The notes below the pieces were generated by a model, which did no database searches, was not told the origin of the DNA, and saw nothing but the letters and a program-made list of their open reading frames with translations. DNA of 64,000 nucleotides from Campylobacterales bacterium (GTDB taxonomy: Bacteria > Campylobacterota > Campylobacteria > Campylobacterales > Sulfurospirillaceae). The translations under genes were made by a program, and so were the position numbers. Shown here one piece after another: positions 15,789-21,265 of the stretch (positions are counted from its first letter, which is position 1; every line of letters begins with the position of its first letter). Location: assembly GCA_016930915.1 (NCBI GenBank), contig JAFGFU010000015.1, positions 1 to 64,000 on the forward strand, in the 5' to 3' direction.

Positions 15789-17099
15789 ATGAAAAAATGC
15801 TCTCTCGCCTTATCTCTTTTACTCTCAACATATGCCTTTAGTGCTAATTTACACTACTCTTTGATTAAAAAAGAGAGTGGCAAACCCAATGAGAGCACGT
15901 TATTAGTAGTTGGAGGAATCCATGGCGATGAACCAGGTGGTTATTTTGCACCCATGCTTTTAGCCAAACATTACACCATTCAAAAAGGTAATGTCTGGAT
16001 AGTACCTAACTTAAATTTTGATAGTATCGTTAAAAATAGACGTGGAACCTATGGTGATATGAACCGAAAATTTGCCAAAATTGAAACTAAAGATGAAGAT
16101 TTTCAGATTGTCTCAGATATTAAAAAACTTATTCTTCATCCGAACGTTGATTTAACACTTAATCTACACGATGGGCAGGGCTTTTACAGACCAAAAACGA
16201 TTGATAAAAATTTTAACCCAAAAGCATGGGGACAAGCAACCATTATTGATCAACAAAAGATTCCTGATGCTAAATACGGTAACCTTGCAGACATTGCCAA
16301 AAAAGTCAATCAAGAAACCAATGTTGATTTAATTGAAGATGTGCATGAATTTAACGTCAAAAACACCAATACAAAAGACAAAGATAAGGCAATGCAACAA
16401 AGCCTCACCTATTTTTCCATCACCAATAATAAACCTGCTTTTGCGATTGAAACCAGTAAAAATATTACAGACCTTTCACACAAAGTTTTTTACCAACTCA
16501 AAACCATTGAAAAATTTATGAAAGTTATGAATATAGAATTTACACGCTCTTTTGAATTAAAAGAAGAGACGATTAAAACCCTTTTAAACGATGTCGGTAT
16601 GCTTGAGATCCCTCCAACAAAAATCATGCTTAATCTCTCAACGCTTAAGCCTTATATCCGCTTTTTCCCAATCAATAAAGAGGAGTTCCATTACAAAAGT
16701 GACAATCCTCTTGTTGCTGTCCTTAAAGACAAAGATAGCTATAAAATTATGAACGGCAATATCCTCATTTCAACCCTCAAAGCAGATATGATGGAATTTG
16801 ACAACTCTTTAGAAGACATCAGTCTGCTTTTAGATGGAGAAAAAACGCGTGCAAAAGTGGGTTCACTCATTTCTGCCAACAAAAGCTTTGAAATCGCCCC
16901 TATTAAAGGCTATCGTATTAACGTTATTGGGTATTCTAAAGAGGGGATAGTAAGTGAAGAAGGTATTAAAATTGAACCGCATGCATTGATGAAATCGTAT
17001 GCCATTGATAAAAATGAAACAATTTATATGGTACATTTTTACAAAGATAAGAAATTTTGTGGCATGGTCAATATCCAGTTTGTAGAAACCAAAAAGTAG
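15789..17099 (+). CDS. csd4: Periplasmic LD/DL-carboxypeptidase of the Csd4/Pgp1 (M99) type, helical cell shape
   Basis: A 436-residue secreted peptidase. It has a signal peptide of about 19 residues (MKKCSLALSLLLSTYAFSA). The zinc motif is GGIHGDEPGG (His45, Glu48), with the third ligand in LNLHDGQG (about His127). The stretch NRRGTYGDMNRKFA is a substrate-site arginine region. In Campylobacter and Helicobacter this family trims peptidoglycan tripeptides to dipeptides and helps produce helical shape. H. pylori Csd4 is known for a Gln in place of the first zinc His; this protein keeps the canonical His. The C-terminal 200 residues match the beta-rich accessory domains of Csd4. It is followed after 10 bases by the EAL-HDOD gene. 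Confidence 0.85.
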   Translation: MKKCSLALSLLLSTYAFSANLHYSLIKKESGKPNESTLLVVGGIHGDEPGGYFAPMLLAKHYTIQKGNVWIVPNLNFDSIVKNRRGTYGDMNRKFAKIETKDEDFQIVSDIKKLILHPNVDLTLNLHDGQGFYRPKTIDKNFNPKAWGQATIIDQQKIPDAKYGNLADIAKKVNQETNVDLIEDVHEFNVKNTNTKDKDKAMQQSLTYFSITNNKPAFAIETSKNITDLSHKVFYQLKTIEKFMKVMNIEFTRSFELKEETIKTLLNDVGMLEIPPTKIMLNLSTLKPYIRFFPINKEEFHYKSDNPLVAVLKDKDSYKIMNGNILISTLKADMMEFDNSLEDISLLLDGEKTRAKVGSLISANKSFEIAPIKGYRINVIGYSKEGIVSEEGIKIEPHALMKSYAIDKNETIYMVHFYKDKKFCGMVNIQFVETKK

Positions 17100-17109
17100 A
17101 AGGAAAAAC

Positions 17110-18335
17110 GTGCATACCTATATTGGAAGACAACCTATTTTCAATAGAAATGGTGAATGTCTTGCTTACGAACTTTTATACCGTTCGTGCGAAGGCAATA
17201 ACTATGCTACCTTTAATGACAATGCCAAAGCTACCGCACGTGTTATTGTCAGTTTGATTCATACGATTGGATTTCCTTCTGTTATTGGTACTAAAAAAGG
17301 GTACATTAACCTTGATGAATCCATGCTCTTTAGTGATGCTCTGCTTCTCTTACCTCAAGAGAATTTTGGATTTGAAATTTTAGAGTACACACACATCACT
17401 GAGCCTCTTGTTGCACGGATTGCGGAACTTCACGCTAAAGGCTATACCTTTTCGTTAGACGATTTTGACTGCACTGAAGCAATGTTTGAAACGTATGCCC
17501 CCATATTTCCTTATATTGACACAATAAAAGTTGATATTCAGGCCAGTGGACTTTGCAATTTAAAAGATTCTCTTGCAAAACTCTCTTCGTATAAAATTAA
17601 TTTGTTGGCTGAAAAAATTGAAACTCAAGAAGAATTTTCTGCTTGTTTAGAGCTTGATTTTCTTTTTTTTCAAGGCTATTTTTTTGAAAAACCCATTATT
17701 TTAAGTGGTAAAAAAATTGAACCTAATACTATTAACGCGATTAATTTAATCAATTGTATTCAAGAAAATAATGATCCCAACTTTATTAGCCAAAAATTTT
17801 CAACCTGCCCTGATTTGGTCTACAACCTTTTGCGTCATGTCAATTCAGGGGCATACCATTTTAAACAAAAAATAACCTCTATCAAACAAATGGTTACCCT
17901 CTTAGGTCCTCAAAAATTCTCTCGTGGCTAGGACTTTTTTTGTATGGAGCGCCTCATATGCGTCCTTTTGGTGGAGAAATATTTAATAACGCAAAATTTC
18001 GTGCTAAAGTCATGGAAGAGTTAGCTCTTGGATGCCATAAGCCTGAACTTGCTAATAAGGCATTTTTAACGGGTAGCCTTTCATTAATTGATGCTTATTT
18101 AAATATTCCTATGCTGGAATTTTTAAATTACGCCCATTTAGACGATGAGATTAAAACAGCTCTTTTATTTCAAGAAGGTTTTTTAGGCGAACTTCTTAGT
18201 ATTGCCACAGAAATGAATCATGTTATGAATACAGAAAAAACATTGAAATATCTTGAAAAAAAACCTTGTTTTAGCATGGAAGAGCTCTACGAAGCATGCC
18301 ACAAAGCGCTTGTTTTTATTGAGGAAACCTCATAA
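17110..18335 (+). pseudogene. EAL-HDOD (YuxH/CdgR-like) signalling protein, frameshifted in an A-tract
   Basis: Two frames together make one 408-residue protein. The start frame (17110-17931, GTG, VHTYIGRQPIFNRNGECLAYELLYRS) is a degenerate EAL domain: the catalytic E-x-L reads FEILEYTH and most metal ligands are absent. It then enters the HDOD domain (NLLRHVNSGAYHF). It stops soon after LLGPQKF. The continuation (KILSWLGLFLYGAPHMRP..., to 18335) is in another frame. Adding one A to the five-A tract at 17912-17916 joins them exactly (LLGPQ-KILSWLGLF). This may be a real inactivation, a phase-variable tract or a sequencing error. An internal TTG at 17940 could start the distal part. Family members act in regulation without phosphodiesterase activity. 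Confidence 0.8.
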
Positions 18336-19341: not shown

Positions 19342-19701
19342 TTAAACCTTAAAACGAAATCCCTCACTTTGTAGAATGTGTTTAAGTTTTTCACGGCACT
19401 CACCTTGAAATTCCAACCATTCCTCTTTACATGTACCGCCACTTCCTAATTTTTTCTTCACCAAAGAGCACAATTGATTTAAAGCTTCTTTGTTCAGAAA
19501 AAAAGGCCCCACAATAGAGACGGGTTTACCTTGACGTTTTTCCATTTTAAGCACTAACAAATGCTTTGCAGGCTCTTTGAGTACTACGGGTATTGAAGAG
19601 GTTTTCATCTCTTCAAACTGCCAAGCGCTATCGTTGTCTAAAGTGCTCCCTAGGCTAAAAGGGGTGTTTTTAACGGCCATACGTCTCTCTAAAAGCTTCA
19701 T
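19342..19701 (-). CDS. SUI1/eIF1-like protein (YciH family)
   Basis: A 119-residue protein whose C-terminal 70 residues match the SUI1 fold: LVLKMEKRQGKPVSIVGPF, then KKKLGSGGTCKEEWLEFQG (the GSGGT...EIQG-like motif) and LKHILQSEGFRFKV. YciH relatives are ribosome-binding and linked to start-codon fidelity or stress translation in bacteria. The start ATG at 19701 has AAAGG 6 bases before it; MAVKNT (19680) is an alternative. The 5' end overlaps the ABC-F gene, which is interesting because both products would act on ribosomes. A near-palindrome TTTACATGTACC lies in the gene. Confidence 0.8.
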   Translation of the reverse strand: MKLLERRMAVKNTPFSLGSTLDNDSAWQFEEMKTSSIPVVLKEPAKHLLVLKMEKRQGKPVSIVGPFFLNKEALNQLCSLVKKKLGSGGTCKEEWLEFQGECREKLKHILQSEGFRFKV

Positions 19702-21265
19702 AATCGCCTTTAAAATCTGTCATTGTACCATCAGGATGTAACTCGATAATACGATTAGCAAAGGCATCAATAAGCTCTCTATCGTGTGTGACACAAATCA
19801 CATTACCTGAAAACTTAAATAATCCCTCACCTAAAGCAATAATCGCTTCCAAATCAAGGTGGTTATTTGGTTCATCAAGAACAAGAAAATTGCCTTTTTC
19901 TAGCATCATTTTTGAAAGTTCAATACGGTGTTTTTCACCACCACTGAGCTGACTGACACTTTTTTTCTGTTCTTCACCAGAGAAAAGCATACGCCCTAAA
20001 CACTTTCGAATTTCATCTAAATCTTTTTTTGCATCATACTGCTGTAACCATTCAAAAAGTTGTAAATCACCCGTAATCATATCGGTGGTGTTTTGAGGAA
20101 AATAACTCGGAATAATCGTCGCTCCCCATTTTATGGTACCTGCATCTTTTTCCAATTGTTCCATAATAATATTACACAGTGTTGTTTTACCCACACCATT
20201 ATGACCAATGAGTGCAATTTTATCGCCTTTTTCAACTTTAAAACTGATGTTATGAAGTACCTTTTGATCCCCATAACTCTTCTCAATCCCCTCAACGTCT
20301 AAGACTTCATTGCCAATATCACGTCCTGCACGAAACACGATACTCGGATCCCGTCTGGAAGAGGTCTGAATGTCAGCAATATCCAATTTTTCAAGACGTT
20401 TTTGACGAGAGGTTGCTTGTTTAGCTTTTGAAGCATTGGCAGAAAATCGTCTTACAAAGGCTTCAAGCTCCTCTTTCTCTTTGAGTTTTTTATCTCTGTC
20501 CATCTCTTGCTGTTTTGCAATTAAATTTGCAGCCATATACCACTCATCATAATTGCCTGTAAATTCACGAATCTTTTTAAAATCCACATCAAGGATGTTG
20601 GTAACAACCGCATTTAAAAAGTGTCGATCGTGAGAGATAACCACCATGGTTCCCTCATGGCGAATGAGTTGCTCTTCTAACCATGAAATGGCTTCCAAAT
20701 CAAGGTTGTTCGTAGGCTCATCCAAAAAGAGGACATCGGGTTTTGGGTAAAGCACTTGTGCTAATAAAATTTTAAACTTATCGCCACCTGTGAGTTCACT
20801 CATCAAACTCTCATGCATGGAGACGGGAAAACCTAAAGAGGCAAGGATTTTTTCAATATTTACATCCACTTCATAGGTTGGGTCTTCTTCTGCGCAAATA
20901 ATCTCTAATTCCGCCAAACGGTCATTGACTTTTTCATCATTAAAATCACCCGTAACATACAGGTGCTCTTTCTCTTTAATAGCATCATATAAGCGCTTAT
21001 TCCCATACATAACCGCATCTTTTAAGGTGTAGTCTTCGAAAGCGTACTGATTTTGTCCCAAAACCCCTACTCTTAAACCATTTTCAATCGAAATATTGCC
21101 ACTGGTTGGCTCTATCTGACGCGATAAAATTTTTAAAAAAGTGGTTTTACCTGCGCCATTGGCACCAATTAAACCATAACGCTTGCCTTTATCCAATTTT
21201 AAATTGATATTTTCAAATAAAAGCTGATGCGAAAAACGCATTGTTAAATTATTAACTTCAACCAT
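19670..21265 (-). CDS. ABC-F ATPase (YbiT-like translation factor)
   Basis: A 531-residue soluble protein with two ABC domains and no membrane part. The first Walker A is GANGAGKTT and its signature LTGGDKFK. The inter-domain linker is about residues 245-315 and highly charged. The second Walker A is GHNGVGKTT and its signature LSGGEKHR. Both Walker B sites read LFLDEPTNNLDLEA and LVLDEPNNHLDLEA. The start MVEVNNLTMRFSHQLLFENI resembles YbiT. ABC-F proteins bind the ribosomal E site and relieve stalling; antibiotic protection is possible but not indicated. It is the first gene of the operon with the SUI1-like protein and the AEC transporter. Confidence 0.9.
   Translation of the reverse strand: MVEVNNLTMRFSHQLLFENINLKLDKGKRYGLIGANGAGKTTFLKILSRQIEPTSGNISIENGLRVGVLGQNQYAFEDYTLKDAVMYGNKRLYDAIKEKEHLYVTGDFNDEKVNDRLAELEIICAEEDPTYEVDVNIEKILASLGFPVSMHESLMSELTGGDKFKILLAQVLYPKPDVLFLDEPTNNLDLEAISWLEEQLIRHEGTMVVISHDRHFLNAVVTNILDVDFKKIREFTGNYDEWYMAANLIAKQQEMDRDKKLKEKEELEAFVRRFSANASKAKQATSRQKRLEKLDIADIQTSSRRDPSIVFRAGRDIGNEVLDVEGIEKSYGDQKVLHNISFKVEKGDKIALIGHNGVGKTTLCNIIMEQLEKDAGTIKWGATIIPSYFPQNTTDMITGDLQLFEWLQQYDAKKDLDEIRKCLGRMLFSGEEQKKSVSQLSGGEKHRIELSKMMLEKGNFLVLDEPNNHLDLEAIIALGEGLFKFSGNVICVTHDRELIDAFANRIIELHPDGTMTDFKGDYEAFRETYGR

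Follow-up and report, generated by a model that had tools for sequence, protein, structure and literature searches.

An EAL-HDOD gene of Sulfurospirillum is split where a short A run lacks one base, probably through a recent deletion

A gene for an EAL-HDOD protein (17110–18335, + strand) in the 64,000-nucleotide stretch of DNA analysed here, hereafter the window, has its reading frame broken by a deficit of one base in a short A run at 17912–17916. This frameshift is far beyond chance, and it was probably caused by a recent, lineage-private deletion of one base in the A run of an ordinary EAL-HDOD gene. We infer that the deletion is present in the actual DNA and is not one local error. The loss of one A from a short run in an otherwise ordinary gene would leave a product which keeps the whole EAL domain, with HDOD cut inside its helical core. 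Such a truncated product would presumably be unstable, leading to loss of function; a less likely alternative is that the EAL domain would be freed of HDOD control.

The 5′ frame (17110–17931, + strand) runs from a GTG start to a TAG stop at 17929–17931 and encodes a product of 273 aa, containing the entire EAL domain (45.6 bits in Pfam) and the initial part of HDOD (28.9 bits, covering positions 17–68 of 196 in the profile). Beyond residue 269 the frame breaks, at five consecutive As (17912–17916, + strand) flanked by C and T, and the stop follows four residues later, these last residues (FSRG) being out of frame with respect to the relatives. The 3′ part (17917–18335, + strand) lies in another frame, which is open from 17865, has TTG at 17940 as its first listed start and ends at 18335. 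Taken alone, this part matched no Pfam family at E 0.001; sequence comparison shows that it matches the rest of HDOD and the C-terminus of the relatives. An intact relative (L008, 410 aa) aligns to both frames, with residues 2–271 matching 17113–17922 (E 5.6e-150) and residues 265–408 matching 17901–18332 (E 1.2e-68), and these two pieces abut end to end in the window with an overlap of a few residues. The initial annotation had placed a split with one base too few at 17912–17916, which is confirmed both by the match of this relative to the two frames and by the gene being in frame in 23 of 23 relatives.

Those relatives come from a search of 24 genomes of the genus Sulfurospirillum, including the window's own, all of which (24/24) contained the gene. 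An unbroken frame of 408–416 codons, counted from the match start, was present in each of the 23 other genomes. Among these 24 only the window's genome lacks the base, since none of the relatives is broken at this point. Recent pseudogenes by indel are characterised by a frame that one lineage has lost and its relatives keep, which is the pattern found here (0/23 relatives broken). The nearest relatives (G020 and G016), with ~94% DNA identity to the window, carry one base more in the run, and the length differences between them and the window consist of this base and three bases near the 3′ end.

In an order-wide draw of 199 genomes, 58 were matched at E ≤ 1e-25, coming from 19 of 70 genera, hence the EAL-HDOD family is patchy outside the genus. 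One of these genomes (G043, contig 41) has an EAL-HDOD homolog that appears in two overlapping pieces (1388–1786 and 1776–2489), so a broken EAL-HDOD copy is not unique in the order. Within the genus, Asn replaces the second Asp of DDF in the copy at locus L007 of G016, and the EAL activity of this copy may be altered, judging by that residue.

The age of the change was approached through dN/dS, with the split gene handled as two pieces and compared with the two nearest relatives. Values were low in the 5′ half (0.061 to G020, 0.069 to G016) and in the 3′ half (0.089 to G020, 0.078 to G016), and both parts are under strong purifying selection. Changes were also assigned to the window branch, taking G002 for the outgroup and G016 for the sister and dropping the codons that could not be polarised (13 in each half). 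Synonymous changes numbered 16 in the 5′ half and 4 in the 3′ half, against 3 and 0 nonsynonymous ones; these numbers are small, above all in the 3′ half. Had a part gone untranslated for much of the window branch, it would be expected to have accumulated nonsynonymous changes. The purifying selection visible in both halves means that the change is either very young or not in the DNA, and no sign of a long decay of the gene was found. No second disruption of the EAL-HDOD gene was found, so the view that both parts are well preserved and free of other lesions holds, with dN/dS of 0.06–0.09 against the two nearest relatives. Recent inactivation, one of the three explanations first offered for the split, is the best fit to a change shared by 0 of 23 relatives in a gene with both halves constrained; the term “inactivation” has to be qualified, however, since the EAL domain stays complete.

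The foremost competing explanation is a sequencing or assembly error, by which the strain's gene would be intact and the draft short of one base of the run; we regard this as possible but rather doubtful. In its favour, all 23 relatives have the gene intact, the assembly is a draft (2,230,579 bases in 37 contigs), and the absence of decay is what an error predicts too. The case also resembles the singleton frameshifts described in one published account, which may be pseudogenes or sequencing errors, in having one frame transition in one genome with the relatives intact; according to that account, BLAST-validated singletons in databases are expected to be mostly sequencing errors (PMC3711429), an expectation that we take seriously.

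Against an error stands the result of a survey for split genes covering ~195 of 2,231 kb (the window and the 131-kb contig C22), which used the collinear regions of G002 and G003 as references and misses shifts close to gene ends. One of 45 matched window genes was split by the G002 reference and one of 48 by G003, in both cases the EAL-HDOD gene, and no other matched gene was split in the window or in C22 (0/116 by G002, 0/126 by G003). The totals are 1/161 and 1/174, and a systematically error-prone assembly was thus not found in this sample. Furthermore, errors should strike longer runs first, and the matched genes of the two stretches contain 1,962 A/T runs of at least five bases, 694 of at least six and 204 of 7–8 bases. 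That the EAL-HDOD gene is the sole split in the surveyed ~195 kb, despite these 204 runs of 7–8 bases, argues against systematic homopolymer error. The base-calling error raised by the initial annotation could still apply as one local error, on which the survey bears indirectly; it finds no companion in the surveyed part of the assembly.

A third genome, G020 (a MAG with cov_6.3 in its contig name), was excluded as a clean survey reference, as 11 of 36 matched window genes were split in it, although its EAL-HDOD copy is intact. G020 thereby illustrates how a homopolymer-prone assembly would look, with more splits than were seen in the window's genome. Two G020 genes besides EAL-HDOD looked split in the window; we ascribe these to G020, as neither was split by G002 or G003. 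The G003 reference (S. deleyianum) has a split gene of its own at a T9 run (C1, ~528463–528946), which is intact in the window's genome (G000) and in G002. A published account of S. deleyianum gives 26 pseudogenes among 2,343 genes (PMC3035281), and with this figure and the one split in G003, the rate of splits seen here is no more than expected. Two S. multivorans genes are described as non-functional through frameshifts (PMC7755780).

Across an alignment of 37 proteins, no variation occurs at E21 (in YELL.R), N67, E89, D117, K140, E168, E171 and Q188, and hardly any at D118; the window gene has all of these residues, which we take to be the EAL catalytic set. The structure modelled for L008, the intact relative (mean pLDDT 85.3, pTM 0.86), is mixed strand-helix to about residue 190 and helical from 205, hence the loss of frame falls inside the helical part of the model. 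EAL proteins such as YahA, PA3825 and YkuI come first among the 50 PDB matches listed for this model (modest TM-scores of 0.31–0.39, whole query), and no HDOD structure was seen among those 50. Support for HDOD comes from sequence profiles, by which the C-terminal part of L008 is matched by HDOD structures, among them Cj0248 of Campylobacter (1vqr). An N-terminal EAL followed by a C-terminal HDOD is found in the intact relatives and in the window's two pieces taken together, but not in the window's 273-aa product, in which HDOD is cut.

The same domain order is seen in ZpdA (VC0515) and CdgJ (VC0137) of Vibrio cholerae, a likeness drawn without direct sequence comparison and one from which the window copy departs in being cut inside HDOD. 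On the strength of this shared architecture, the intact protein is predicted to be a c-di-GMP phosphodiesterase, with modulation by HDOD possible, and it is possibly metal-responsive. ZpdA is described as an active phosphodiesterase which needs Mn or, less effectively, Mg, with inhibition by Zn reported, and it has ELL in its active site, as in the “ELL”-type EAL of the window's family (PMC12607878). Deletion of cdgJ in V. cholerae is reported to lower motility (PMC4624765). Among four papers listed for Sulfurospirillum together with c-di-GMP, none concerns the EAL-HDOD gene, judging by titles and abstract openings.

It is conceivable, though improbable, that the deletion is real and has been selected, cutting off HDOD so that the phosphodiesterase would be unregulated and c-di-GMP constitutively lowered. 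If this were true, loss of HDOD would be a one-base route to rewiring the motile/sessile decision. The preserved EAL half is compatible with this explanation without singling it out, because the 3′ half looks equally preserved, and that equal preservation gives no pointer towards an EAL domain acting without HDOD control, as it might if the truncated product were stable.

Reversible slippage in the A run, toggling the gene or its HDOD part, with the window's genome in the off state, is very unlikely. The lesion does share with homopolymer phase-variable (contingency) genes its position in a coding-region homopolymer, and it amounts to one unit of that homopolymer. A C5/C6 tract that varies between strains is known (PMC5084427), so a short tract alone is no bar to switching. 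In the same source, however, the variable tracts are mostly those of at least 8 bases, and another gives a minimum of seven for poly-A/T (PMC3711429); the run here has five As and those of the relatives at most six, shorter than the usual tracts. Neither is the run conserved, as its length is six As in just 12 of the 23 relatives and five (2 relatives), four (6) or three (3) in the others, every relative being in frame, and its sequence varies among them; in none of the 24 genus genomes does it exceed six. No second state appears either, the off state being present in 0 of 23 relatives, all of which are other species, and the surveyed genes show no break at longer runs. The length of the tract weighs less against switching than do its lack of conservation and the absence of a broken frame in 23 relatives. 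The on/off switching by slippage suggested by the initial annotation is accordingly rejected as the main explanation.

Programmed ribosomal frameshifting or transcriptional slippage, yielding a short EAL product alongside the full EAL-HDOD protein, is hardly credible: a -1 slip at AAA would reach the downstream frame, but programmed -1 frameshifting follows the heptamer rule X XXY YYZ, and the zero-frame codons CAA AAA TTC provide no such heptamer. Folding of the downstream RNA is no stronger than that of shuffled sequences (z -0.37) and the two-frame arrangement occurs in 0 of 23 relatives, hence heptamer, downstream structure and conservation are all lacking at this site. For transcriptional slippage, the published figure is more than seven As (PMC3711429). 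The 3′ part is also unlikely to be a separately started protein, with no clear ribosome-binding site seen by eye in the 18 bases before either of its first starts (TTG 17940 and ATG 17958).

The window's genome gave 19 EAL, 30 GGDEF and 4 HDOD hits, the pieces of the split gene included, so the organism could plausibly do without one such protein. For a genome of 2.2 Mb, this c-di-GMP network is rich. The split EAL-HDOD gene, ordinary in kind, carries little weight by itself. It does call for caution in annotation, where two genes or a pseudogene may be recorded at this locus. If the deletion is real, the strain also offers a small natural test of the role of HDOD in the EAL-HDOD architecture.

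The upstream neighbour of the EAL-HDOD gene is a Peptidase_M99 gene (15789–17099, + strand), assigned by family match as a cell-shape carboxypeptidase of the Csd4/Pgp1 type. The gap between the two genes is 10 bases, hence they are probably co-transcribed. At 23 of the 24 loci of the genus (L005–L028), a Peptidase_M99 gene immediately precedes EAL-HDOD; at L025 none was found in the 1.5 kb before the gene. This adjacency, which hints that cell shape and c-di-GMP may be connected, is a modest lead to the role of the EAL-HDOD protein across the genus.

Further along the window, at 19342–21265, a 531-aa gene with ABC-F-like sequence (recognised by eye) and an adjoining 119-aa gene look recombinant. 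Their dS is 0.62–0.77 to G016 and 0.27–0.35 to G002, whereas other compared genes show about 0.20–0.29 to G016 and 0.93–1.26 to G002. At these positions G016 is close to G003.
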